A stretch of 64,000 nucleotides of DNA from Sandaracinus amylolyticus (GTDB lineage: Bacteria; Myxococcota_A; Polyangia; Polyangiales; Sandaracinaceae), in the NCBI RefSeq assembly GCF_021631985.1, contig NZ_CP070225.1, positions 9,238,001-9,302,000 of the forward strand. Direction: 5' to 3'. This document shows positions 6,609 to 60,671 of this stretch, piece by piece. Numbering within the stretch: position 1 is the stretch's first letter; every line of letters begins with the position of its first letter. Below the pieces are notes generated by a model. The model was not told the DNA's origin. It saw nothing but the letters and a program-made list of their open reading frames with translations, and made no database searches. A program made the position numbers and the translations under genes.

Positions 6609-6953
6609 ATGGAAGCCATCGCGAAGGCTCGGAACCAGCGTATCGCCGTCCGTAAGGCGCGCGTGATCGCGAACCTGATCCGTGGACGCAACGCCGCCGA
6701 GGCGCTCGAGATGCTGCGCTTCACCAAGAAGGCGGCCGCGCCGATCGTGGCGAAGCTCCTCGACAGCGCGATCTCGAACGCGCGTCAGAAGGACCAGAAC
6801 GTCGATCTCGACAACCTCGTCGTGAAGACGGTCTTCGCGGACAAGGCGCCCGATCGCTTCATGCGCCGCTGGCGTCCGCGCGCCCAGGGCCGCGCGACCC
6901 GCATCACCAAGGGCATGAGCCACATCACGCTCGTCGTCTCGGACGAAGGCTGA
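6609..6953 (+). CDS. rplV: Ribosomal protein L22
   Basis: 50S protein whose beta-hairpin lines the exit tunnel (a macrolide-resistance site). 114 residues; [19 protein letters not shown], the hairpin [13 protein letters not shown] and the [11 protein letters not shown] end are clear. It is the first gene after the 6529-6558 terminator, so it may have its own promoter. rpsC follows after 8 bases. Confidence 0.97.
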
Positions 6954-6961
6954 GGTTTCAC

Positions 6962-7618
6962 GTGGGTCAGAAGACGCATCCGTACGGGTTCCGCCTCGGA
7001 GTGATCCGAACCTGGAACTCCAAGTGGTACGAGGACAAGAACTACTCGAAGTGGCTCCACGAGGACCTCGCCCTTCGTGAGCACGTTCGCGAGAACTACG
7101 CGCACGCGGGCATCGCCGCGATCGAGATCGAGCGCGCCGCGAACAAGGTGAAGGTCGTCATCTCGACCTCGCGCCCCGGCATCATCATCGGCAAGCGCGG
7201 TGCGGGCGTCGAGCAGCTGCGTGGCGAGCTCCAGAAGCTCACCGGCAACGAGCTCTTCGTCGACATCACCGAGGTCCGCAAGGCCGAGACGAACGCGCAG
7301 CTCGTCGCCGAGAACATCGCGACGCAGCTCGAGCGCCGTGTGGCGTTCCGCCGCGCGATGAAGAAGGCGCTCCAGACCGCGATGAAGTTCGGCGTGAAGG
7401 GCATCCGCATCTACGCCGGCGGCCGCCTCGGTGGCGCCGAGATCGCGCGCTCGGAGCGCTACCGCGAGGGCCGCGTGCCGCTCCACACGCTCCGCGCCGA
7501 CATCGAGTTCGGCGTGGCGACGGCGAAGACGACGTACGGCACGATCGGCGTCAAGGTCTGGATCTTCAAGGGCGAGGTGCTCCCGCAGCGCCGTCGCCGC
7601 CAGCCCGTCGCCGGCTGA
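6962..7618 (+). CDS. rpsC: Ribosomal protein S3
   Basis: 30S protein at the mRNA entry channel with helicase activity. 218 residues from a GTG start at 6962. The KH type-2 domain shows [17 protein letters not shown] (GKRG loop), and the C-terminal domain carries [12 protein letters not shown] and [13 protein letters not shown]. Starting at the GTG gives the standard [14 protein letters not shown]-terminus. Confidence 0.97.
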
Positions 7619-7651
7619 TCGCCGCGACCGAGCAGAAGAGCGAGCACTCCC

Positions 7652-8068
7652 ATGCTGCAGCCCAAGCGCACCAAGTTCCGCAAGTCGCACACCGGCAATC
7701 TCCGTGGCGTCGCCCAGCGCGGCAGCTCGGTCTCGTTCGGTGATTTCGGCCTCCAGGCCCTCGAGAGCGGGCACATCACCTCGCGTCAGATCGAGGCCGC
7801 TCGTATGGCCATCCAGCGCCACGCGAAGCGCGCTGGCAAGCTCTACATCCGCATCTTCCCCGACCAGCCCTTCACGAAGAAGCCGCTCGAGACCCGAATG
7901 GGTACCGGCAAGGGCGCAGTCGAGGGTTGGCGCGCGCAGATCCTCCCCGGCCGCATCCTCTACGAGATGGAGGGCGTCGAAGAGTCGGTCGCGCGCGAGG
8001 CGTTCCGTCTGGCCGGGCACAAGCTGCCGGTCGCCACCCGCTTCGTGATGAGGAGTCAGCAGCTGTGA
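7652..8068 (+). CDS. rplP: Ribosomal protein L16
   Basis: 50S protein organising the A-site tRNA region. 138 residues, full length: [14 protein letters not shown] start, [22 protein letters not shown], and the [10 protein letters not shown] and ETRMG blocks (the region of the hydroxylated Arg in E. coli). Its TGA overlaps the start of rpmC by 4 bases, indicating translational coupling. Confidence 0.97.
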
Positions 8069-8277
8069 CGAAGCCTTCCGAGCTCCGTGACAAGACCGAC
8101 GACGAGCTCAAGGAGCTCGAGAAGTCGATGACGCGCGAACTGTGGCAGTCGCGCTTCTCGAACTACTCGAACCAGCTCGACGACACCGACAAGATCCGCC
8201 GTCTCCGTCGCGACATCGCTCGCGTGAAGACGCTGATGACCGAGCGCGCGACGAAGGCCGCCGGCGAGAACGGGTGA
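8065..8277 (+). CDS. rpmC: Ribosomal protein L29
   Basis: Small helical 50S protein near the tunnel exit. It begins at a GTG (8065) overlapping the rplP stop in a GTGA, giving 70 residues with the family pattern [18 protein letters not shown] and [16 protein letters not shown]. The overlap is the reason for choosing this start rather than an upstream in-frame codon inside rplP. Confidence 0.93.
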
Positions 8278-8282
8278 GCGAG

Positions 8283-8603
8283 ATGAGCGACGCGACGCAG
8301 GCCAAGGGGCCGACGCCGAAGAACGACGAGGAGCGCGGGAACAAGCGCCACCTGGTCGGCCGTGTGATCAGCGACACCGCGAGCGCGGGCCGCGCGAAGA
8401 AGACCGTGACGGTCGAGGTGGTCCGCCGCCTTCGCGACCCGATCTACGGCAAGTACATCAAGCGCCGCAAGCGCTACCACGCGCACGACGAGACCGAGCA
8501 GTTCCGCACGAACGATCTCATCGAGATCCGTGAGAGCCGCCCGCTCTCGGCCACGAAGCGCTGGGTCGCCGTGCGCCTCGTCGATCGCCCCGAGGAGGTC
8601 TGA
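8283..8603 (+). CDS. rpsQ: Ribosomal protein S17, extended N-terminus
   Basis: Primary 16S-binding 30S protein with an OB fold. I take the ATG at 8283 (106 residues); an in-frame GTG at 8274 overlapping rpmC is possible. The core runs from KRHLVGRVISDTASAGRAKKT through YGKYIKRRKRYHAHDE to SATKRWVAVRLV. About 20 residues (MSDATQAKGPTPKNDEERGN) precede the usual start, a charged and probably disordered extension. rplN starts 3 bases later. Confidence 0.95.
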   Translation: MSDATQAKGPTPKNDEERGNKRHLVGRVISDTASAGRAKKTVTVEVVRRLRDPIYGKYIKRRKRYHAHDETEQFRTNDLIEIRESRPLSATKRWVAVRLVDRPEEV

Positions 8604-8606
8604 GCC

Positions 8607-8975
8607 ATGATCCAGCAGCAGACCGAGCTCGACGTCGCCGACAACAGCGGCGCGAAGCGCGTGGAGTGCATCAAGGTCCTCGGCGGCTCGCGTCGTCGCT
8701 GGGCCGGCCTCGGCGACCTGATCGTCGTCGCAGTGAAGGAAGCGCTCCCCACGGCGAAGGTGAAGAAGGGTGACGTGGCGAAGGCCGTCGTCGTCCGCAC
8801 CCGCCGCGAGTACCAGCGCGCCGACGGCAGCTACATCAAGTTCGACCAGAACAGCGCGGTGCTGCTCAATGCGCAGCTCGAGCCGATCGGCACGCGCATC
8901 TTCGGGCCGGTGGCGCGCGAGCTCCGTGGCAAGAAGTTCATGAAGATCATCAGCCTCGCGCCCGAGGTGGTGTGA
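8607..8975 (+). CDS. rplN: Ribosomal protein L14
   Basis: 50S interface protein that forms bridge B8. 122 residues, full length, with [18 protein letters not shown], the [11 protein letters not shown] block and the [22 protein letters not shown] end. The stop TGA shares bases with the ATG of rplX (TGATG), so the two are coupled. In enterobacteria the spc operon begins here; in this genome there is no gap before it. Confidence 0.97.
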
Positions 8976-9289
8976 TGGGTATCCGCGTCAAGAAGGACGA
9001 CCAGGTCGTCGTCATCGCCGGCAAGGACAAGGGCACGAAGGGCCGCGTCCTGCGCGTCATCCGCGAGGAGGATCGCGTGATCGTCGAGGGCGTGAACCGC
9101 GTGAAGCGGCACACCAAGCCCACGCCGAAGAACCCGTCGGGCGGCATCATCGAGAAGGAAGCCGCGATCCACATCTCGAACGTGATGCTCGTCGACGCGA
9201 AGACGGACAAGCCCACGCGCGTCCGCTTCGCCGAGAAGGATGGCAAGAAGGTCCGCGTTGCCGTGAAGAGCGGCGCGAACATCGACTGA
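8975..9289 (+). CDS. rplX: Ribosomal protein L24
   Basis: Assembly-initiator 50S protein. An ATG at 8975 overlapping the rplN stop gives 104 residues; a GTG one codon earlier is in frame but less likely. The KOW motif KKDDQVVVIAGKDKGTKGRV near the N-terminus and the NRVKRHTKPT block identify it. A 100-base gap with two hairpins separates it from rplE. Confidence 0.96.
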   Translation: MGIRVKKDDQVVVIAGKDKGTKGRVLRVIREEDRVIVEGVNRVKRHTKPTPKNPSGGIIEKEAAIHISNVMLVDAKTDKPTRVRFAEKDGKKVRVAVKSGANID

Positions 9290-16958: not shown

Positions 16959-17975
16959 ATGTCGACGACGTTCGTTGCGCGCAACTGGCGCGATCTCATC
17001 AAGCCGAAGAGCGTCCCGGTCGAGGACGCGACGCCGACCTACGGCAAGTTCGTGTGCGAGCCGCTCGAGCGCGGTTTCGGCATCACGCTCGGCAACGCGC
17101 TGCGCCGGATCCTGCTGAGCTCGCTCCAGGGCGCAGCGATCACCGCGGTGAAGATCGACGGCGCGCTCCACGAGTTCACGTCGGTGCCGGACGTCGTGGA
17201 AGACGTCACGGACATCGTGCTCAACCTGAAGGAAGTCGTGGTCAAGGCGCACTCGCCGAAGACCCACGTCCTCCGGATCGACCGTGAAGGTCCCTGCGAG
17301 GTCACCGCGGGTGACATCCAGGTCAACGACCAGGTCGAGATCCTCAACCCGAAGCACGTCATCTGCACGGTCGCCAAGGGCGGCCGCTTCTCGGCGGAGC
17401 TGACGATCAACGTCGGCCGTGGCTACGTGCCGGCGGATCGCAACAAGACGCCGGGCATGCCGATCGGGACGATTGCGATCGACGCGCTCTTCTCGCCGAT
17501 CCGCAAGGTGAACTACACGGTCACCAACGCGCGTGTCGGTCAGATCACGGACTACGACAAGCTCGCGCTCGAGGTCTGGACGAACGGCAGCGTGAAGCCG
17601 CACGACGCGGTCGCGTACGCCGCGAAGATCCTCAAGGACCAGCTCTCCATCTTCATCAACTTCGAGGAAGAGGAAGAGGCGACGAGCCTCGAGTCGAAGG
17701 AAGAGGAGCCGCTCAACGAGAACCTCTTCCGCTCGGTGGAGGAGCTCGAGCTCTCGGTCCGCAGCGCGAACTGCCTGCAGAACGCGAACATCCATCTCAT
17801 CGGCGAGCTGGTCCAGAAGACCGAGGCCGAGATGCTCAAGACGAAGAATTTCGGCCGCAAGTCGCTGAAGGAGATCAAGGAGATCCTCGCCGACATGGGC
17901 CTCTCGCTGGGCATGAAGATCGACAACTGGCCGGCGATGCTCGAGCGCTGGAAGCAGCAGCAGGCTCAGGCCTGA
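16959..17975 (+). CDS. rpoA: RNA polymerase alpha subunit
   Basis: Dimerising scaffold of RNA polymerase and target of upstream elements and activators. 338 residues. The N-terminal domain has [23 protein letters not shown] and the [10 protein letters not shown] region; an acidic linker ([16 protein letters not shown]) precedes the C-terminal domain ([21 protein letters not shown] ... [24 protein letters not shown]). Two-domain architecture is intact. Confidence 0.98.
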
Positions 17976-18039
17976 GGCGGCCGGACGAGATCGAGGCGAT
18001 CGTCGCGAGACGAGCGAAGTAGAGAGACGGTAGGAAGCC

Positions 18040-18528
18040 ATGCGTCACCGCAAGTCGGGCCGGAAGTTCGGCCGCAATACCCCGCACCGCCGCGCGATGC
18101 TCCGCAACCTCGCGGGCAACCTCGTGCTGCACGAGAAGATCGAGACGACCGACGCGAAGGCGAAGGAGCTCCGCCGCACGGTGGAGCGCCTCATCACGCG
18201 CGCGGCCCGGCTCGGTGACGAGCTCACCGTCGACATCGGCAAGCTGAGCGACGAGCAGCGTGGCGAGGTCGTGGCGCGTCGCGTCCACGCGCAGCGCCTG
18301 GTCGCGCGGGACCTGCCGAAGACGCTGACCAAGACCAACTCGGACGGCAGCACCGAGGAAGTCGATCTCGTCTACAAGCTCTTCCACGAGATCGCGCCGC
18401 GCTTCCTCGCGCGCATCAAGGACAAGAAGGGCGGCGGGTACACCCGCATCACGAAGCTCAACGCGCGCCGCGGCGACAATGCGCCGATGGCGATGATCGA
18501 GATCCTCGGCGAGAGCGCGGCGGAGTGA
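18040..18528 (+). CDS. rplQ: Ribosomal protein L17
   Basis: 50S protein near the tunnel exit. 162 residues; MRHRKSGRKFGRNTPHRRAMLRNLAGNLVLHEKIETT is diagnostic. The DEQRGEVVARRVHAQRLV region and a longer central segment (NSDGSTEEVDLVYKLFHEIAPRF) extend it beyond the E. coli length. It is the last gene of the supercluster. Confidence 0.96.
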   Translation: MRHRKSGRKFGRNTPHRRAMLRNLAGNLVLHEKIETTDAKAKELRRTVERLITRAARLGDELTVDIGKLSDEQRGEVVARRVHAQRLVARDLPKTLTKTNSDGSTEEVDLVYKLFHEIAPRFLARIKDKKGGGYTRITKLNARRGDNAPMAMIEILGESAAE

Positions 18529-18536
18529 TCTCGCGC

Positions 18537-18620
18537 GTGCCTCCGATGCGGAGGCACGTCGGATCGTGAGCCGGTCTCGCTGGAGAAGCCCCGCGGCGCG
18601 TGCGTCGCGGGGCTTTCGTT
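18537..18620 (+). terminator. Two hairpins ending the ribosomal supercluster
   Basis: First stem GTGCCTCC (18537-18544) with GGAGGCAC (18550-18557). Second stem AAGCCCCGCG (18586-18595) with CGCGGGGCTT (18606-18615), loop of 10 bases, followed by TCGTTCG. The second has A's before and T's after the stem, so it can act in both directions and would also serve the converging gene that ends at 18644. Confidence 0.75.
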
Positions 18621-18643
18621 CGTCCGTCAGGCGCGATTGCCCG

Positions 18644-19312
18644 TCAAGCGCGCGCGCGGGCGCGGCGGCCGGCGTTGCTCTTCGACGAGCCCCGGGCGAG
18701 GCCCGGCTTGCTGCTCGTGCCGCGCGACGTGGAGCCCGCGAGGCGCACCCCCTTCCGCGGGCCGAGCGTGGCGCCGCGCTGCTCACCGCTGCTCGCGGCA
18801 CCGCGGATCGACGGGCGCATCGCGTGCTCGGTGGCCTTCTTCACCGCCTTGCGCGAGCCAGAGCGTCCCGACGATGCGTGGGCCCCCACGTCGGACGGCC
18901 GCGAGCGGCCGCCTCCCGAGCCTCCGCGCGCGCCGGTGGAGCGCCCGCCGGAGGCCTTGGCCACCCGGGTCGGGGGGCTGTGGTCGCGGCGCGGCTTCGC
19001 ACGGCCTCCGACCGTTCCCTTGCGCCGTCGTCCGGGCGGCACGTCCTCGCCCTCGCGCTCGATGAAGTGCCCTTCGCCGACCCGGACGGGACGGGTGATC
19101 GTGCCGATGCCCGGCGCGCTGCCGGGACGCGAGTGCTCGCTGCGAGGCTCCCGTCCCGTCGCGCGCGCGCCGCGCGCGTCCGGACCACGAAGTCCCTCTC
19201 TCGCGCGCTCCTGGGCCTGACCGACCTGCCGCTTTCGCTTCGACTTCGCCGGGGCGCTCGCATCCTCGGTGTCGACTGCTCGTCTCGCGCTCTTCTTGCC
19301 GTCGCGCGCCAT
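18644..19312 (-). CDS. Low-complexity basic protein, function unknown
   Basis: 222 residues, very rich in Arg, Lys, Ser, Gly and Ala. The start is well marked: the ATG (19312) is preceded on the minus strand by GAGGAGGACGG, an excellent ribosome site, and the codons from there on end mostly in G or C as in real genes of this genome. The N-terminus reads MARDGKKSARRAVDTEDAS; a more ordered patch is IGTITRPVRVGEGHFIEREG (about residues 76-95). The rest looks disordered, with repeated GR, SG and RA steps. I recognise no family. High basic charge suggests nucleic-acid binding, but that is inference. It converges on rplQ. Confidence 0.65.
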   Translation of the reverse strand: MARDGKKSARRAVDTEDASAPAKSKRKRQVGQAQERAREGLRGPDARGARATGREPRSEHSRPGSAPGIGTITRPVRVGEGHFIEREGEDVPPGRRRKGTVGGRAKPRRDHSPPTRVAKASGGRSTGARGGSGGGRSRPSDVGAHASSGRSGSRKAVKKATEHAMRPSIRGAASSGEQRGATLGPRKGVRLAGSTSRGTSSKPGLARGSSKSNAGRRARARA

Positions 19313-19603
19313 CCGTCCTCCTCGCGCGCCCTGGACCCGAGCGGACTTGCTCCGCGGATCGGCGCGCTGCGGTCTCCGGCGGCTGCCGCATCGCGCGTGC
19401 CACGGATGTGCTCCACCGCACGCATCGCGACGCGACTGGAAACATGCGCGTCCTTCGTGTGCGCGCGTCGCGCTGCGCCTCGGTGGGGCGGGCCGCGTCG
19501 TGCACGTTGCCCCGGCGCCACGCGGGGGGCCGCGAGTCCGATGCCCCAACACGCGGGATCGTCGATTGCAGAGTTGCCGCGTGATGCTCGACGAAGGAAC
19601 GCG
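19313..19603. other. Divergent promoter region, no gene seen
   Basis: 291 bases between the start of the basic-protein gene (minus) and the glycosyltransferase gene (plus). Base use loses the strong third-position GC pattern, and no frame looks coding in either direction. It must hold both promoters, but I cannot place a confident -35/-10 pair. GAAGGAACGCG just before 19604 is the glycosyltransferase ribosome site. Confidence 0.4.
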
Positions 19604-20683
19604 ATGAGCGACGTCGTCGCGTTCACCCGTGCTCGTTGGGGCACCGAGACGTCGCGCGAGCACCCGTGTCTGCGCGCCCTCGCGCGCTCGCGACGCGTCT
19701 TCGCGATCGAAGAGCCGGTGCGTGATGCGGGTCTCGTCGCAGCGTTCGTCGAGGAGCTCCGCGTCACCGACGGGCTCGTCGTCTGTGTGCCCCACCTGCG
19801 CGACGATCTCGACGAAGTGCGGTCGCGCGCCGCGCTCGCGATGCTCGTGCAAGACCTCGTCGAGCAGCACGCGATCCGCGCAGAGATCCTGTGGGCCCGG
19901 AGCGCAGCCGACCTCGCGGTCGCGCGCTCGGTCGATGCGCACGTCGTGGTGTGGGACTGCGACGACGAGCCGTTCGCGCCCGGCGAGCGTGCGCTCCTCG
20001 CGCGCGCCGACCTCGTGCTCGCCGCGACGCATGCGAGCGCCGACGCGCGGCGCCGTCTGCATCCGCACGTGCAGGTGATGCCGCTCGTCGTCGATGCGCG
20101 TACGAGCGGTGACGAGACGGTCGATCCGCGCGATCAGTCGAACATCCCGGGCCCGCGCCTCGGGCTCGCGGTGCCGATCGACACGAGCCTCGACGTCGCG
20201 CTCCTCGCGCACGTCGCCGACGAGCTGCCCGACCTCTCGGTGATCGCGCTCGGCGCGCCGCGTGGAATCGACGTGCGCGCGCTGCCGTGTCGGCCGAACA
20301 TCCGATGGCTCGGCGCGAAGCGCGACGACGAGCTGCCGCGTTACATCGCGGGGTGGGACGTGGGGATCGCGCCGGTCCTCTCGAGCGGCGGCCATGCACG
20401 CGTCGCGCTCGAAGTGATGGCGTCGGGGCGCCCGATCGTCGGCACCAGCACGCGCGATCTCGCCGCGCTCTCACCGCTCGCGCGCAGCGTCGACCGCGCC
20501 TCGTTCGTGGCTGCGATCGAGGCCGCGCTGCGCGAGCCGATCGACGCGCATGCGCGCTGGGCCGACGCGCTCCGCGCCGAGCTCACGGCGGACGCCGCGT
20601 GTGCGCGCATCGAGGCGTGGGTCGCCGAGACGCGTGGGCGCTCGCGACGCGCGGGCGCGGCGCTCGCTCGGTCGAGCGCTTGA
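19604..20683 (+). CDS. Glycosyltransferase, GT4-like
   Basis: 359 residues with the layout of a GT-B glycosyltransferase: an N-terminal half with a hydrophobic core (DGLVVCVPHL, DAHVVVWDCDDEPF, ADLVLAATHASADARRRL) and a C-terminal half with the glycosyltransferase-1 signature (NIRWLGAKRDDELPRYIAGWDVGIAPV ... ARVALEVMASGRPIVGTSTRDLA), where the donor-binding E is in ALEVMASG. No signal peptide; probably cytoplasmic or membrane-peripheral. I chose the ATG at 19604 (GAAGGAAC before it); the open frame upstream lacks family similarity. Donor and acceptor are unknown, and no other glycan genes are nearby. Confidence 0.75.
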   Translation: MSDVVAFTRARWGTETSREHPCLRALARSRRVFAIEEPVRDAGLVAAFVEELRVTDGLVVCVPHLRDDLDEVRSRAALAMLVQDLVEQHAIRAEILWARSAADLAVARSVDAHVVVWDCDDEPFAPGERALLARADLVLAATHASADARRRLHPHVQVMPLVVDARTSGDETVDPRDQSNIPGPRLGLAVPIDTSLDVALLAHVADELPDLSVIALGAPRGIDVRALPCRPNIRWLGAKRDDELPRYIAGWDVGIAPVLSSGGHARVALEVMASGRPIVGTSTRDLAALSPLARSVDRASFVAAIEAALREPIDAHARWADALRAELTADAACARIEAWVAETRGRSRRAGAALARSSA

Positions 20684-41480: not shown

Positions 41481-43643
41481 ATGGTCCGCCTGACCGACAG
41501 AATCTCCCTCACCGAGATCGTCGAGAAGGTTCGCGGCTACCAACCCCAGGCGGACTTCGACCTCGTCAATCGCGCGTACGTCTTCTCCGCGCAGAAGCAC
41601 GAGGGCCAGAAGCGGAAGTCGGGCGAGCCCTACTTCACCCACCCGGTCGCGGTCGCGAACATCATCGCGGAGATGAAGCTCGACAGCGCGAGCGTCTGCG
41701 CCGCGCTGCTCCACGACGTCCTCGAGGACACCGACGTCACGACCAAGCAGATGGAGGAGATCTTCGGCGAGGAGGTCTCCTTCCTCGTCGACGGCGTCAC
41801 GAAGCTCGGCAAGATCAACTTCACCTGCAAGGAAGACCAGCAAGCGGAGAGCTTCCGCAAGATGCTGGTCGCGATGGCGCGCGACATCCGCGTGCTGCTC
41901 GTGAAGCTCGCCGACCGTCTCGACAACATGCGGACCCTCGAGCACATGAAGCCCGAGGCGCAGGCCCGCATCGCCCAGGAGACGCTGGAGATCTACGCGC
42001 CGCTCGCCGGACGCCTCGGCATCAACTGGCTCAAGAGCGAGCTCGAGGATCTCTCGTTCCGCTACCTGTATCCCGAGGCCTACGTCGACATCACCGCGAA
42101 GTCGAAGAAGGTCTCGCGCGACCAGGAGCGCTACATCAGCGACGTCTGCAAGCGACTGCAGAAGATGCTGATCGAGCGCGGGTTCGCCGCCGAGTGCAGC
42201 GGGCGCATGAAGCACCTGTACTCGATCTACCGCAAGATGCGGCAGAACAACTGCGAGTTCGAGCAAGTGCACGACGTGCTCGCGTTCCGCGTGCTCGTCG
42301 AGAACGTCGCGGACTGTTACGCAGCGCTGGGCGTGATCCACTCGCAGTGGACCCCGATCCCCGGCCGCTTCAAGGACTACATCGCGCTGCCGAAGCCCAA
42401 CATGTACCAGTCGTTGCACACGACGGTCATCGGGCCCGGGCAGCGCCGCATCGAGGTGCAGATCCGCACCCACGAGATGCACAAGACCGCCGAGAACGGC
42501 ATCGCGGCGCACTGGAAGTACAAGGACAAGAGCGGCGGCCCCGACGCGAAGGACGCGGCGCGCTTCGCGTGGCTGCGCCAGCTCATGGAGTTCCAGCAGG
42601 AGGTCGCGGACCCCGCCGAGTTCCTCGACTCGGTGAAGGTCGATCTCTTCGCGGACGAGGTCTACGTCTTCACGCCGAAGGGGCAGCTCAAGGTCTTCCC
42701 GCGCGGCGCGACGCCGATCGACTTCGCGTACTCGGTGCACTCGGAGGTCGGCGATCACTGCGCGGGCTCGCGCGTGAACGGCGCGATCGTCCCGCTGCGG
42801 TACACGCTGCACAACGGCGACACCGTCGAGATCATCACGTCGCCGCAGCAGCATCCCAGCAAGGACTGGCTCGACTTCGTGCAGACGGGCCGCGCGCGCT
42901 CGCGGATCCGCACGTACATCCGGAGCGAGGAGCGCCGTCGCTCGATCAAGCTCGGCAAGGATCTCGTCGAGCGCGCCTTCCACAAGAAGGACATGTCGTT
43001 CGCGCGCTTCCTGAAGAGCGGCGACGCCGAGCGGGTCGCGACGCACTTCAAGGTGCAGAGCCCGGACGAGCTCTTCGCGGCGGTCGGGTACGGGCGCGTG
43101 TCCGCGTCGGACGTGTACGACGCGGCGATCCAGGACGAGAAGTCGGCGGACGCGCTGCGGCCCTCGTTCATCGAGCGCACGGTGCGTCGCGTCACCGGCA
43201 GCTCGAGCGCGGGCGGGATCCGCATCGACGACGTCGACGACGTGCTGGTGCGCTTCGCCCAGTGTTGTCAGCCGCTGCCGGGCGATCCGATCACCGGATG
43301 GATCACGCGGGGGCGCGGCGTGACGGTGCATCGTCGCGGCTGCCCCAAGGCGATGGAGCTCGATCCCGAGCGCCGCATCGACGTCGCGTGGAGCGAGGCG
43401 ATCAAGATCGCGCGGCCGGTCGCGCTGCGGATCATCACCTCGGATCGGCCGGGGATCCTCGCGAACGTGAGCGCTGCGTTCACCGAAGCGGGCGTGAACA
43501 TCCAGGAGGCGAACTGCCGCGTCGGTCCCGACGGTCAGGCGGTGAACCTCTTCCAGTTCCTGGTCGACGACGCCGGGCGCTTGCAGAACCTGATGCGCAA
43601 GATCCAGGGCGTCGAAGGCGTGTACTCGGTCGAGCGCGCCTGA
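41481..43643 (+). CDS. Bifunctional (p)ppGpp synthetase/hydrolase RelA/SpoT
   Basis: Makes and degrades the stringent-response alarmone in the cytoplasm. 720 residues from ATG 41481. Hydrolase HD domain: His54 (YFTHP), His78-Asp79 (LLHDVLEDT), so hydrolysis is probably active. Synthetase domain: GRMKHLYSIYRKM and KDYIALPKPNMYQSLHT. TGS domain (VYVFTPKGQLKVFPRGATPIDFAY), a zinc-finger-like region with CCQPLPGDPI and RGCP, and a C-terminal ACT domain (RPGILANVSAAFTEAGVNIQE). This is the Rel architecture with both activities. Confidence 0.96.
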   Translation: MVRLTDRISLTEIVEKVRGYQPQADFDLVNRAYVFSAQKHEGQKRKSGEPYFTHPVAVANIIAEMKLDSASVCAALLHDVLEDTDVTTKQMEEIFGEEVSFLVDGVTKLGKINFTCKEDQQAESFRKMLVAMARDIRVLLVKLADRLDNMRTLEHMKPEAQARIAQETLEIYAPLAGRLGINWLKSELEDLSFRYLYPEAYVDITAKSKKVSRDQERYISDVCKRLQKMLIERGFAAECSGRMKHLYSIYRKMRQNNCEFEQVHDVLAFRVLVENVADCYAALGVIHSQWTPIPGRFKDYIALPKPNMYQSLHTTVIGPGQRRIEVQIRTHEMHKTAENGIAAHWKYKDKSGGPDAKDAARFAWLRQLMEFQQEVADPAEFLDSVKVDLFADEVYVFTPKGQLKVFPRGATPIDFAYSVHSEVGDHCAGSRVNGAIVPLRYTLHNGDTVEIITSPQQHPSKDWLDFVQTGRARSRIRTYIRSEERRRSIKLGKDLVERAFHKKDMSFARFLKSGDAERVATHFKVQSPDELFAAVGYGRVSASDVYDAAIQDEKSADALRPSFIERTVRRVTGSSSAGGIRIDDVDDVLVRFAQCCQPLPGDPITGWITRGRGVTVHRRGCPKAMELDPERRIDVAWSEAIKIARPVALRIITSDRPGILANVSAAFTEAGVNIQEANCRVGPDGQAVNLFQFLVDDAGRLQNLMRKIQGVEGVYSVERA

Positions 43644-57151: not shown

Positions 57152-58279
57152 TCAGATCGCCTGGGCCTTCAGCTTCGCCGAGATGAGCATGTAGAGCGCG
57201 AAGAGCGCGTCCTTGTCGCTCACCGCGCTCTCCGGCATCAGCACGAGGCGACAGAAGCGCAGGTACTCGCGCCCGTCGAGCCCGAGCAGGCCCGCCTTCG
57301 CCATCGGGCTCTCGTTCGCGAGCGTGCCAGGCAGCGACTCGAGCAGTCGCGCCAATGCGCGCGCCGAGAGCTCGAGCGCGTGCTTGTGCGAGCCCTGCCG
57401 GATCGCGTCCTCGATCTCCACCACCGTCGCGGTGTCCGCGCCCTCCCAGAGCGGCGCGAACGAGATGCCGACGTCGGGCGACGCGATCGGCGGAGGCACC
57501 GCGGTCTTCGCCGCGCGCACCACGTCGGTCGACTCGTTGAGCGTGAACGCCTCGTGCTCGCCCGAGTCCACGATGCGCTGCAGCTCCGCGACGATCCCGC
57601 CCGCCATGCCACGGGGGCGCACCGACTGCATCGCCGCCGCTTCGGGCGAGGGCGGCAGGTGCTCGGCCGGCGTCTCGCGCGGCGCGCTCTTCGGCAGCTC
57701 GTTCCACAGCGAGCGCACCACGAGCCCCGAGATGTCGCGCAGCGCCTCGAGCACGCCCACGCCCGCGTTCGCCGCGGTCTCGTGCTCGGGCGCGCCGAGC
57801 GCGTTGAGGTCCGCGCGCATCTGCTCGACCGACATCAGGTCCGGCAGGTCGCGTTTGTTGTACTGCACGACGAACGGGAACCGCGCGAGGTCGATCCCCA
57901 TCTCCTCGAGGTTCTGCTGCAGGTTCTCGAACGACTGCAGGTTCGAGTCGCGCGCCGCGCGCTGCGAGTCCGCGACGAACACCACGCCGTCGGCGCCGTT
58001 CAGCACGAGCCGTCGCGTCGCCTCGTAGAACACCTGACCGGGCACCGTGTAGAGCTGGAAGCGCACTCCCATGCCCTGCACCTGGTTCACCGTGATCGGC
58101 AGGAAATCGAAGAAGATCGTGCGGTCGCCCTCGGTCGCCAGCGTGAGCAGCTGACCGCGCCGCTCGGGTCGCACCGCGTCGTAGATCGCCTTCAGCGTCG
58201 TCGTCTTTCCCGACAGACCGGGCCCGTAATAGACGATCTTCGCGGAGATCTCGCGAGCGAGCGGATTGATCAAGGACAC
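57152..58279 (-). CDS. MglA-like Ras-superfamily GTPase with C-terminal extension
   Basis: 375 residues. The first 195 follow M. xanthus MglA closely: EISAKIVYYGPGLSGKTTTL (P-loop), ATEGDRTIFFDFLPI, LYTVPGQVFYEATRRLVLNGADGVVFVADSQ, and QYNKRDLP for guanine recognition. MglA switches cell polarity and gliding with its GAP MglB. The added 180 residues are helical with an acidic Pro-rich linker (SAPRETPAEHLPPSPEAAAM) and are not in MglA. The neighbouring DUF4388/PATAN gene is divergent over 58 bases and likely a functional partner. No mglB is adjacent. Confidence 0.9.
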   Translation of the reverse strand: MSLINPLAREISAKIVYYGPGLSGKTTTLKAIYDAVRPERRGQLLTLATEGDRTIFFDFLPITVNQVQGMGVRFQLYTVPGQVFYEATRRLVLNGADGVVFVADSQRAARDSNLQSFENLQQNLEEMGIDLARFPFVVQYNKRDLPDLMSVEQMRADLNALGAPEHETAANAGVGVLEALRDISGLVVRSLWNELPKSAPRETPAEHLPPSPEAAAMQSVRPRGMAGGIVAELQRIVDSGEHEAFTLNESTDVVRAAKTAVPPPIASPDVGISFAPLWEGADTATVVEIEDAIRQGSHKHALELSARALARLLESLPGTLANESPMAKAGLLGLDGREYLRFCRLVLMPESAVSDKDALFALYMLISAKLKAQAI

Positions 58280-58337
58280 GACGCGACGAACGTTATCAGA
58301 TCAGCCGTCCCCTTCGTGATAGGTTGTCGACCTTCGA

Positions 58338-59342
58338 ATGCTGCGCGGTGATCTCGCGACGATGCCGCTGACCGACGTGCTCCAGTGGGCCGAGGCGGCG
58401 CGGCGGAACGTACGGATCGAGATCGAGCGCGAGAGCGGGCTCGGCGCGTGGATGATCACCCACGAGCGCGAGGTCGTCGCGAGCTCGATGCCCACGGTGC
58501 GCGGCGTGCTCGCGTCCGACGGAACGCCCGACGCACCGGGCCCGGGGTTGCGCGCCGCGGCGATCGAGTCGCTGCTCGATCTCTTCCTCGAGACCCAGGG
58601 CCGCTTCACGCTCCGCGACGTCTCGGATCTCACGACGACCGCGTCCGACGCGGTGAAGCTCGCGGTGCCGCTCGGCTTCCTCGTGATGGAAGGCCTGCGC
58701 CAGCTCGACGAGTGGCCGCGCCTCGCGTCGACGTACCCCGACGACGCTGCACGCCTGCGCGCGATCGGCACCGCGCCCGACGACGAGCTCGGCGCGGTGC
58801 AGTCGGCGATCCTCGAGCAAGCACGTCGTCCGTTCGGCTCGGGCACGCCCACGCTCGCCGAGATGCAGCTCGTGCTCGGGCTCTCGCGCACCGCGCTGCT
58901 GCGGCGCGTCGACGAGCTGCGCGCGATCGGCTGCGTCGAGGTCGAGGGCGCGCTGCCCGGCGCACGTGATCTCGCGGCGACCCTGATCGATCAGGCCGCG
59001 GTGCTGGTGCGCGAGGAGCAGTTCGCCGAGGCCGCGCACGTGCTGCGCTCGCTGCTCGCGAGCAGCCCCGCCGACACGCGGGTGCGACGCCTGCTCGAGC
59101 AGACCGAGCGCGCCCACCTCGCGGCCTGTTATGCGCAGCTCGCGAAGACCGACGTGGTGCGCATCGCCCGCCCGCCCTCCGCCGCGATCCCGAGCGCGGA
59201 TCAGGCGCTGCTCGACGCGCTCGCACAGAAGCCGCGCAGCGTGGCGGCGCTCACGCTGCTCTCGCCGCTGCGCGAGCTCGAGACGCTGCTCGCGCTGATT
59301 CGCTTGCGCAAGAAGGGCATCGTCGAGGTCTCGCCCGCCTAG
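58338..59342 (+). CDS. DUF4388 (PATAN) domain protein
   Basis: 334 residues. The N-terminal domain shows the DUF4388 pattern LRGDLATMPLTDVLQWAEAARRNVRIEIERESG ... WMITHEREVVASSM, a predicted protein-interaction module found in response regulators and GTPase systems. The middle has a helix-turn-helix-like part (TLAEMQLVLGLSRTALLRRVDELRAIG), then helices resembling TPRs (ADTRVRRLLEQTERAHLAACYAQLA). It shares a short promoter region with the MglA-like gene, suggesting that they work together. Confidence 0.82.
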   Translation: MLRGDLATMPLTDVLQWAEAARRNVRIEIERESGLGAWMITHEREVVASSMPTVRGVLASDGTPDAPGPGLRAAAIESLLDLFLETQGRFTLRDVSDLTTTASDAVKLAVPLGFLVMEGLRQLDEWPRLASTYPDDAARLRAIGTAPDDELGAVQSAILEQARRPFGSGTPTLAEMQLVLGLSRTALLRRVDELRAIGCVEVEGALPGARDLAATLIDQAAVLVREEQFAEAAHVLRSLLASSPADTRVRRLLEQTERAHLAACYAQLAKTDVVRIARPPSAAIPSADQALLDALAQKPRSVAALTLLSPLRELETLLALIRLRKKGIVEVSPA

Positions 59343-59528: not shown

Positions 59529-60671
59529 ATGGCGGACTTCAGCCACACGTCTCCGAGCGGCTTTCCTGCGCCATTCGCTACGCTACGTGCACGCGCAGAG
59601 CCGCTCCCCGCGGAGCTCCTGTTGCGCATGCACGAGCGCATGGTCGAGGCGCGCTGTCTCGAGGAGCGCCTCATCCGCATGCAGCGTGGAGGGGACGGCT
59701 ACTTCTGGATCGGCGGGCCCGGCGAAGAGGCGTTCAACGTCGCGCTCGGCCTGCTCGCGAAGAAGGGCCAGGGTCTCGATCACGACTACCTGCATCTGCA
59801 CTATCGCTCGAGCGCGACGCTGCTCGCGATGGGCGCCGATCCGGTGGACGCGCTCCGGCAGATGAAGAGCGTCGCGACCGATCCCTACTCGGGCGGTCGC
59901 AACTTCTGCGGTCACTACAGCAAGCGCGAGTGGAACGTCGCGCCGATCACCTCGCCGATCGAAGTGCAGTACGCGACCGCGATCGGCACCGCGATTGCGC
60001 AGAAGCGCGCGGGCGGCGAGGGCATCACGATCGTGCAGGGCGGCGACGCGGGCACGGCCGAGGGCGACTTCGCGAGCTGCCTCGTCTGGGCGTCGCGCCC
60101 GGGCTTCGAGCTCCCGATGCTGATCATCGTGACCAACAACGGCTGGGGCATCTCCACGCCGGGCCACGAGCAGCACGGCGAGCAGCGCATCGCGGATCGC
60201 GGCAAGGCGTTCGGGATGCGCACCGCGACGATCGACGGCAACGACGCGGAGAGCGCGTACCGCGGCCTCGAGGAAGCGATGCGCTACGTGCGTCGCGAGC
60301 GGAAGCCGTTCCTCCTCGAGGCGTACGTCTCGCGTCTCTACGGTCACTCGAGCTCGAGCGGCTCGAACTACGTCGAGACCGAGTTCGACTGCGTCACCGA
60401 GATCGAGAAGAAGCTCGTCGCGCGCCACCTGCGCACCAGCGACGAGTGCGACTCGCTGCGCGCCGAGTACGAGCAGTTCCTCCTCGAGGCGGCGAAGACG
60501 GTCTCGCTCGAGCCGAAGCCCGAGCCGGCGTCGGTCTGGGAGCACGTCTTCACGGATCGCGACATCGTCGGCGAGGGCGCCCGCAAGGTGCCCCACGACA
60601 ATCGCCTCTGGAAGGCTCCGGCATGCTCGTTCCCGACGACCAAGGCGTCGAAGAGCGGCAGCGCTTCCTGA
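59529..60671 (+). CDS. 2-oxoacid dehydrogenase E1, alpha subunit
   Basis: 380 residues from ATG 59529; the open frame upstream is not conserved. Thiamine-diphosphate site: VQGGDAGTAEGDFASCLVW followed by IIVTNNGWGIST, the GDG-x26-NN motif with Ala at the third position. DHDYLHLHYRSSATLLAMG and GGRNFCGHYSKREWNV are family blocks. It decarboxylates a 2-oxoacid together with the beta subunit downstream; sequence type is closest in feel to branched-chain or related dehydrogenases, but the substrate cannot be read. No E2 or E3 in the window. Confidence 0.88.
   Translation: MADFSHTSPSGFPAPFATLRARAEPLPAELLLRMHERMVEARCLEERLIRMQRGGDGYFWIGGPGEEAFNVALGLLAKKGQGLDHDYLHLHYRSSATLLAMGADPVDALRQMKSVATDPYSGGRNFCGHYSKREWNVAPITSPIEVQYATAIGTAIAQKRAGGEGITIVQGGDAGTAEGDFASCLVWASRPGFELPMLIIVTNNGWGISTPGHEQHGEQRIADRGKAFGMRTATIDGNDAESAYRGLEEAMRYVRRERKPFLLEAYVSRLYGHSSSSGSNYVETEFDCVTEIEKKLVARHLRTSDECDSLRAEYEQFLLEAAKTVSLEPKPEPASVWEHVFTDRDIVGEGARKVPHDNRLWKAPACSFPTTKASKSGSAS

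Follow-up and report, generated by a model that had tools for sequence, protein, structure and literature searches.

A tailed MglA-family GTPase and its divergently encoded, co-inherited PATAN partner in Sandaracinus amylolyticus

Introduction

A Ras-like switch of the MglA type sets front and back in gliding bacteria. Here we describe two divergent genes of Sandaracinus amylolyticus, one encoding an MglA-family GTPase with an added C-terminal tail and the other a PATAN (DUF4388) protein. They lie in a 64,000-nucleotide stretch of the forward strand (GCF_021631985.1, NZ_CP070225.1, positions 9,238,001-9,302,000; hereafter the window) of a genome of 10.96 Mb on two contigs (G000).

Among described systems, the GTPase resembles MglA of Myxococcus xanthus and Thermus thermophilus (Group 1), with which it has in common an R53 arginine finger, T78, Q82 and an NKRD motif; its G domain is 53% identical to M. 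xanthus MglA. It differs in its 180-amino acid (aa) extension of linker and helical domain, the lack of an adjacent mglB, the divergent PATAN partner and a P-loop serine (S23) where M. xanthus MglA has C. In M. xanthus MglA, F56/F57/F59 face MglB, while L64, I67, K181 and K185 face the acidic C-terminal helix of MglB (PMC6785124). M. xanthus MglA also stimulates type IV pili through SgmX, a tetratricopeptide repeat (TPR) protein whose binding to MglA is stated (PMC11580455). Like our locus, SgmX pairs an MglA-type GTPase with a candidate partner that has TPR-like helices, but the PATAN protein has one hairpin and no TPR array; we draw this likeness by description and not by sequence. Orphan members, which have no coupled mglB, are allowed in the MglA family (PMC4316618). 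SofG of M. xanthus is such a member, not mglB-coupled and, at 239 aa, longer than MglA (PMC4316618); it is far shorter than the window GTPase, which we liken to it by description and not by sequence. One account has SofG not helped by MglB and without a known GTPase-activating protein (GAP) (PMC4316618), and another, to the opposite effect, has MglB acting as GAP for SofG also (PMC11016934).

PATAN genes near some Group 1 and Group 5 MglA genes were reported in 2014 (Wuichet and Sogaard-Andersen, PMC4316618), with Makarova 2006 cited for PATAN genes near MglB; as described there, the PATAN-GTPase interaction rests on gene neighborhood only. That classification removed sequences longer than 240 aa, so a tailed subfamily could not appear in its groups, and PATAN-linked GTPases of 353-392 aa such as those described below fall outside its set. 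In Synechocystis, PATAN response regulators bind the pilus motor PilB (PMC7690835, PMC10519157, PMC9090330), and PixE, PixG, PilG and TaxP2 resemble our case as PATAN proteins of a pathway that steers surface movement (PMC7690835, PMC10519157). Our literature search, in which subscription papers and preprints were mostly out of range, turned up no paper that we recognized as dealing with MglAs that carry a tail or with a test of a PATAN-MglA complex, and a single paper, on another subject, that used DUF4388 by name. The occurrence of MglA near PATAN genes has thus been published since 2014; new here is a tailed GTPase variant with a co-inherited PATAN partner.

Results

The PATAN protein is a dedicated, co-inherited partner of the GTPase, as revealed by their joint presence, joint absence and divergent pairing. 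A first search found a PATAN match in 14 of 56 relatives, full-length in nine. Across 183 genomes of the order, 158 had some match to the PATAN profile, as many PATAN proteins exist; full-length orthologues were limited to nine (E <1e-138; next best 2.8e-12). The same nine encoded the close type of tailed GTPase, with strong tail matches (E <1e-36; next 4e-14). The close type was therefore found in 9/9 genomes with a full-length PATAN orthologue and in 0/174 others of the order. The first-pass annotation, made from the window's letters, had let its proposal of a joint module stand or fall with co-occurrence in other genomes and with interaction, and co-occurrence is what these counts reveal.

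The pair is divergent and adjacent in 8/9 genomes. Apart from the window, a GTPase with a divergent PATAN neighbor was found in seven genomes, one of them a congener; across the six outside the genus, identity was 47-58% for the GTPase and 37-52% for the PATAN protein, and GTPases of the linked type were 353-392 aa long. In the ninth genome (G029), the two genes occupy separate contigs, and the 9.6 kb upstream of each contains no partner. In a second collection, seven of 29 PATAN loci were close relatives; the GTPase gene was divergent and adjacent in six, and the seventh was the G029 contig. Five of these six repeat genomes already counted (identical alignment figures), while L189 is a new, tenth genome and another divergent case. 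The 22 weaker loci, mostly from Acidobacteriota, had no GTPase match in the flanks retrieved. The three closest named matches to the PATAN protein came from metagenome-assembled genomes of Sandaracinaceae (two) and of a Polyangia bacterium (one). Because the gene caller missed or overextended genes of the pair in L084, L187 and L189, their presence there was established by tblastn.

Within families, the pair is patchy, occurring in 6/10 genomes of family f1 and 3/7 of family f9. All 17 genomes probed in these families encode canonical MglA, and the eight that lack one gene of the pair, some of which are incomplete assemblies (75-96% complete), also lack the other. In the congener G002 (L224, G002:C402), homologues of window positions 41481-43643 and 59628-60671 directly adjoin each other and the pair is missing. 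Since these flanking homologues meet on one contig, the absence is not an assembly gap. At this site, G002 lacks about 16 kb of the window (43.6-59.6 kb), the pair included. The corresponding block of another congener, G001, matches the window gene by gene. With the loci compared from other genera, the window shares the pair and no other called gene, and some of those loci have one or two flanking genes in common with each other.

Both genes are under purifying selection. Against G001, the ratio of non-synonymous to synonymous substitution rates (dN/dS) was 0.05 for the GTPase gene and 0.11 for the PATAN gene, compared with 0.43 and 0.28 for two neighboring genes, which encode a 165-aa protein and a dehydrogenase E1. 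The 195 codons of the G domain carried 17 synonymous and no non-synonymous changes, the tail 14 synonymous and two non-synonymous, and the TPR part of the PATAN protein no non-synonymous changes.

We also inspected by eye 18 weak PATAN matches from elsewhere in the order as candidate orthologues and rejected them, as none was a full-length orthologue. In fifteen, an FHA-like part precedes the PATAN domain; of the others, L129 has a receiver-like start, L126 a PATAN start with a different C-terminal half, and L114 the C-terminal half only.

Judged by sequence and predicted structure, the GTPase is a Ras-like switch of the MglA type that retains every catalytic residue, and activity as such a switch is the best reading of these features. 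It had been described at first as very close to MglA but with a 180-residue added tail, and this description held. Residues 1-191 match M. xanthus MglA (E 4.4e-66), phmmer matches include 6hjh, 5ymx and 3t12, the four best solved-structure sequences are all MglA, and the predicted structure aligns with M. xanthus MglA-GTPgammaS (6h17) over 193 residues at 53% identity with a Z of 30.1 in the structure comparison program VIA. Both proteins were compared at full length, and the 50 matches listed for the GTPase are G domains. The P-loop, TVPGQ at G3 (T78, Q82) and NKxD of the MglA fold are present. R53, T54, T78 and Q82 were found in all 26 tailed MglAs aligned, in each of which the intrinsic arginine finger R53 stands beside the G2 threonine T54. 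At 375 aa, the protein exceeds the 150-240 aa of single-domain members in the 2014 scheme (PMC4316618). The pair and its parts are listed in Table 1.

Table 1. The divergent gene pair and its parts, in window coordinates
Feature	Position	Strand	Details
Tailed MglA-family GTPase gene	57152..58279	-	375 aa, GTG start, stop 57152-57154
G domain, residues 1-195	57695..58279	-	R53, T54, T78, Q82, NKRD present; phmmer, VIA, alignment
Disordered proline-rich linker, residues 196-271	57467..57694	-	pLDDT; 9-21% identity outside genus; 14% proline
Conserved C-terminal helical domain, residues 272-375	57155..57466	-	Tail profiles; pLDDT; 44-60% identity outside genus
Divergent intergenic region	58280..58337		58 bp
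PATAN/DUF4388 protein gene	58338..59342	+	334 aa, ATG start
PATAN (DUF4388) domain, residues ~1-132	58338..58733	+	PF14332 48.4 bits, residues 3-126; model
First winged-helix-like unit, residues ~133-206	58734..58955	+	Model; 9v0j_B Z 7.8 over 126-204
TPR-like helical hairpin, residues ~207-268	58956..59141	+	VIA Z 11.0 to 3ieg_A over 208-267
Second winged-helix-like unit, residues ~269-334	59142..59339	+	VIA Z 9.4 to 2yu3 (270-334)

The 180-aa extension has two parts. In five proteins from outside the genus, identity to the window GTPase was 65-72% in the G domain and 44-60% in the tail, and dropped to 9-21% in the linker only, as expected of a genuine domain joined on by a linker that evolves fast. 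The predicted local distance difference test score (pLDDT) is below 50 at linker residues 197-230, 232-234 and 239-269, while the C-terminal domain is modeled as five helices spanning 281-374 (ten-residue pLDDT means 74-95). No Pfam family recurred among 24 tails (at most one member each, best E 0.029), and the tail had no convincing sequence match in the PDB (best E 0.16). Its helix pattern suggested a TPR character, which we do not claim, as TPR_19 matched one of the 24 tails, at E 0.17.

Tailed MglAs extend well beyond the pair. The tail profile matched 73 of the 183 genomes, compared with nine that have the PATAN orthologue. The tailed GTPase thus has a broader distribution than the pair and presumably a greater age, and the PATAN protein has the look of a partner specific to one clade. 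In a phylum-wide sample of 377 genomes, a widened profile matched 36, of which 31 belong to the order and five to other orders of the class, with no match outside the class in this sample, whose share from outside the class is not stated. Of the 26 loci checked (L130-L155, which include one of the five class-mates from outside the order), 25 have an MglA G domain ahead of the tail; the 26th is cut short. In a tree of 59 G-domain rows from the order, a single branch (support 80/53) separates the 36 tailed rows, nine of which repeat a gene already included, from the rest. A single origin of all tailed MglAs is therefore likely but not certain.

Neighbors varied among 18 regions around tailed MglAs without a PATAN partner of this type. 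With families assigned from single members, they include genes for rhomboid and PA14 proteins, genes for CpsB and UDP-sugar dehydrogenase and, in two genomes of family f4, canonical mglBA with an S49 peptidase between. In these two (L071, L081), the tailed MglA is a few genes from mglBA, with an S49-peptidase-type gene and a small gene in between, and the same two genes also flank mglBA in the host genome (L031). Such neighbors, which include polysaccharide-type genes (CpsB, UDP-sugar dehydrogenase), the patchy presence of the pair in f1 and f9 and its absence from that site in G002 would suit an accessory unit with a role other than polarity (for example in the envelope, polysaccharide or development), kept in some species only. 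Purifying selection on both genes speaks against this, as does a G domain that is nearest, among solved structures, to the MglA of motility, and we regard such a role as improbable.

As noted in the first-pass annotation, mglB is not nearby: the window has no Robl_LC7 match and no mglB lies within four genes, the distance that defines coupled members. The genome has two Robl_LC7 matches, one at 1.81 Mb, 7.5 Mb from the window (9.24-9.30 Mb), and one at 8.59 Mb, 0.7 Mb from it. Canonical mglA lies beside the MglB-type gene at 1.81 Mb. These distances would fit a model in which the PATAN protein is not an effector but a regulator of an orphan GTPase (a GAP or a guanine nucleotide exchange factor), replacing MglB or RomR-RomX. 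The confinement of the PATAN orthologue to genomes with the close GTPase type fits as well, as does the description of SofG as an orphan paralogue not helped by MglB and without known GAP (PMC4316618), which is contradicted by the report that MglB serves SofG, too, as a GAP (PMC11016934).

The surfaces that face MglB in M. xanthus bear on this model. We compared eight PATAN-linked with 18 PATAN-free tailed MglAs, leaving L189 (K181 and A185 by eye) outside the counts. The linked proteins have S23, E50, F56, Y77 and F84 in 8/8 rows, all but S23 in agreement with M. xanthus MglA; the PATAN-free proteins have G23 (17/18), P50 (18/18), Y56 (18/18), F77 (18/18) and Y84 (17/18). F56/F57/F59 and a basic residue (R/K) at 181 were each kept in 8/8 linked rows, whereas residue 181 was E/D in 17/18 PATAN-free rows. 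Against this argument, V64 and V67 occupy 8/8 linked rows where M. xanthus has L and I, while L64 is found in 14/18 PATAN-free rows. Residue 185, basic in 6/8 linked (G in the window's own) and 10/18 free rows, does not separate the groups. Since several MglB/RomR-facing residues are kept, the alignment suggests, on mixed evidence, that MglB or RomR may still act in trans on the PATAN-linked GTPase. An acidic C-terminal helix was not evident by eye in the PATAN protein. Simple replacement of MglB by the PATAN protein is weakened by this mixed evidence, and we consider a regulator role unlikely.

The PATAN protein is predicted to consist of a PATAN domain, a winged helix, a TPR-like hairpin and a second winged helix. 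Its model has a mean pLDDT of 87.8 and a predicted TM-score of 0.60, from an alignment of eight sequences. The DUF4388 match, also part of the first-pass annotation, exceeds the curated PF14332 cut-off (48.4 against 25 bits). The first winged-helix-like unit is modeled with helices at 153-163, 173-180 and 184-196 and a strand at 200-203; HTH_24 at 175-200 is not significant (E 0.47). The hairpin also aligns with Fis1 (9ave; Z 10.8 over 208-267), although a VIA Z under ~13 may be chance for helical repeats, and TPR_19 is under the family cut-off (E 0.0077). The second winged-helix-like unit also aligns with GATOR1 subunits (VIA Z 8.4-8.5 over 267-334). In contrast to PixE, PixG, PilG and TaxP2, no receiver domain was detected (no Response_reg match at E up to 1), and winged-helix-like and TPR-like parts are present instead.

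A roadblock/longin kinship of the PATAN domain was considered and rejected. Foldseek ranked GATOR1/SEA chains second to fourth (E 0.17-0.23, TM 0.15-0.18) and gave no match for the PATAN protein at E up to 0.001; VIA places such chains on the winged-helix parts and not on the PATAN domain.

PATAN proteins are a sizeable paralogous group in the host genome, with 14 DUF4388 matches, of which 12 are over cut-off. A second MglA/PATAN locus (L030; G000:C1:8572000-8591950, at 6816-9035 and 17837-19870) encodes a 367-aa protein whose DUF4388 match falls below the cut-off and, divergently, a 241-aa MglA-like GTPase. It also encodes a 121-aa protein that is roadblock-like by eye, with no Pfam match, and, ~9-10 kb further on, a response regulator (RR)-DUF4388 protein and a Robl_LC7 protein.

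The 58-bp spacer, expected by the first-pass annotation to be a shared promoter region, contains two conserved blocks. By eye, ACG[GT]TA[TGC]CAGATC (58290-58302) and GTG[AG]TAG (58316-58322) were present in all six f1 spacers read, which represent about four distinct lineages, and were not evident in f9 spacers. A sigma-70 scan of the spacer found no promoter. The blocks would fit a model in which the two proteins never touch: the spacer would be a shared divergent promoter, the PATAN/winged-helix protein would regulate elsewhere, and the GTPase would work with MglB or RomR in trans. The two predicted winged-helix-like units, the MglB-facing residues that are kept and the fact that most tailed MglAs lack the partner are consistent with this. 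However, pairing persists with spacers of ~193 bp (G017) and ~166 bp (G039), G029 has both genes without their being divergent neighbors (nearby linkage there being possible), and both genes are missing together in the patchy families. Absence of contact is in our judgment rather unlikely.

A signaling gene is next to the GTPase gene in three of the six other divergent loci of the second collection. In L189, a PilZ gene and an RR-HD-GYP gene follow on the same strand; in L187, a Ser/Thr kinase gene follows on the same strand; in L192, a hybrid histidine kinase gene lies alongside on the other strand. The PilZ protein of L189 is of the TIGR02266 type and, with the RR-HD-GYP protein, directly follows the PATAN-linked GTPase (L189:924-2843), an arrangement that hints at a link to cyclic di-GMP. 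In three genera, a protein of ~300 aa with a hydrophobic start by eye is encoded near or next to the GTPase (L186:1978-2883, L188:1986-2882, L084:2139-3020), with no Pfam match in L186 and L188 and no NCBIfam match in L186. PilB was over the family cut-off in 15 of the 17 f1/f9 genomes and sub-cut-off or partial in the other two; only over-cut-off counts are meaningful, as the family also matches 13/14 control genomes below cut-off.

Discussion

Together, our results establish that the gene pair is real and conserved, and that members of a known GTPase family carry an extra domain that is conserved as well. Of the functional models, we tentatively favor a two-part signaling unit in which an active MglA-type switch has a dedicated PATAN partner and probably acts on type IV pili or surface motility. 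In this model, the GTP-bound GTPase would bind the PATAN protein, or the PATAN protein would scaffold the GTPase through the GTPase tail and its own TPR/winged-helix part. The nucleotide state could be set in trans by canonical MglB and RomR-RomX, or by other factors. The PATAN protein may then act as the effector or adaptor that relays the state of the GTPase, with type IV pili as the likeliest target. This last step is drawn by analogy, since PATAN domains bind PilB in Synechocystis and MglA stimulates pili through SgmX. Rather than replace canonical MglA, the pair would add to it an accessory branch for polarity or surface motility.

Several points weigh against this model. We infer both the binding of the GTPase to the PATAN protein and the function of the pair. 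Since linked genes are gained and lost together, their co-occurrence is not independent evidence, and the counts overstate independence. G029, the one case away from divergent adjacency, would supply such evidence, but downstream of its two genes the contigs end after 1.3 and 0.2 kb, and the genes may be linked nearby in a different arrangement. Of the 73 genomes matched by the tail profile, 64 lack a PATAN orthologue of this kind, so the GTPase can function in its absence. Signaling neighbors vary between genomes, no signaling family was found among the scanned neighbors in L186, L188 and L190, and the flanks of the pair in the window, which encode the 165-aa protein without family and dehydrogenase E1/transketolase proteins, suggest nothing. 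PilB is present with or without the pair, so its occurrence does not tie the pair specifically to pili.

The first-pass annotation had proposed an alternative polarity or signaling module. The signaling part gains from the conserved pairing. A polarity module that dispenses with MglB gains no such support, given canonical MglA in every f1/f9 genome probed, mglA beside an MglB-type gene at 1.81 Mb and several MglB/RomR-facing residues kept. A polarity module as such is plausible but unproven.

More broadly, Polyangia may possess a Ras-like GTPase subfamily, excluded by length in 2014, in which the tail on its disordered linker would serve as an effector or autoregulatory arm in cis. One branch would have recruited the PATAN-winged helix-TPR protein as a dedicated partner, yielding a switch beside, and partly independent of, MglA-MglB. 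We hold this wider scheme to be possible but rather doubtful.

The pair offers a clean two-gene case in which presence and absence contrast naturally and the extra domain is defined, and it comes from a lineage other than that of the customary model, M. xanthus. With it, the known link between GTPases and PATAN proteins becomes directly testable, and it points to a sizeable subfamily of MglA that the 240-aa length filter removed.

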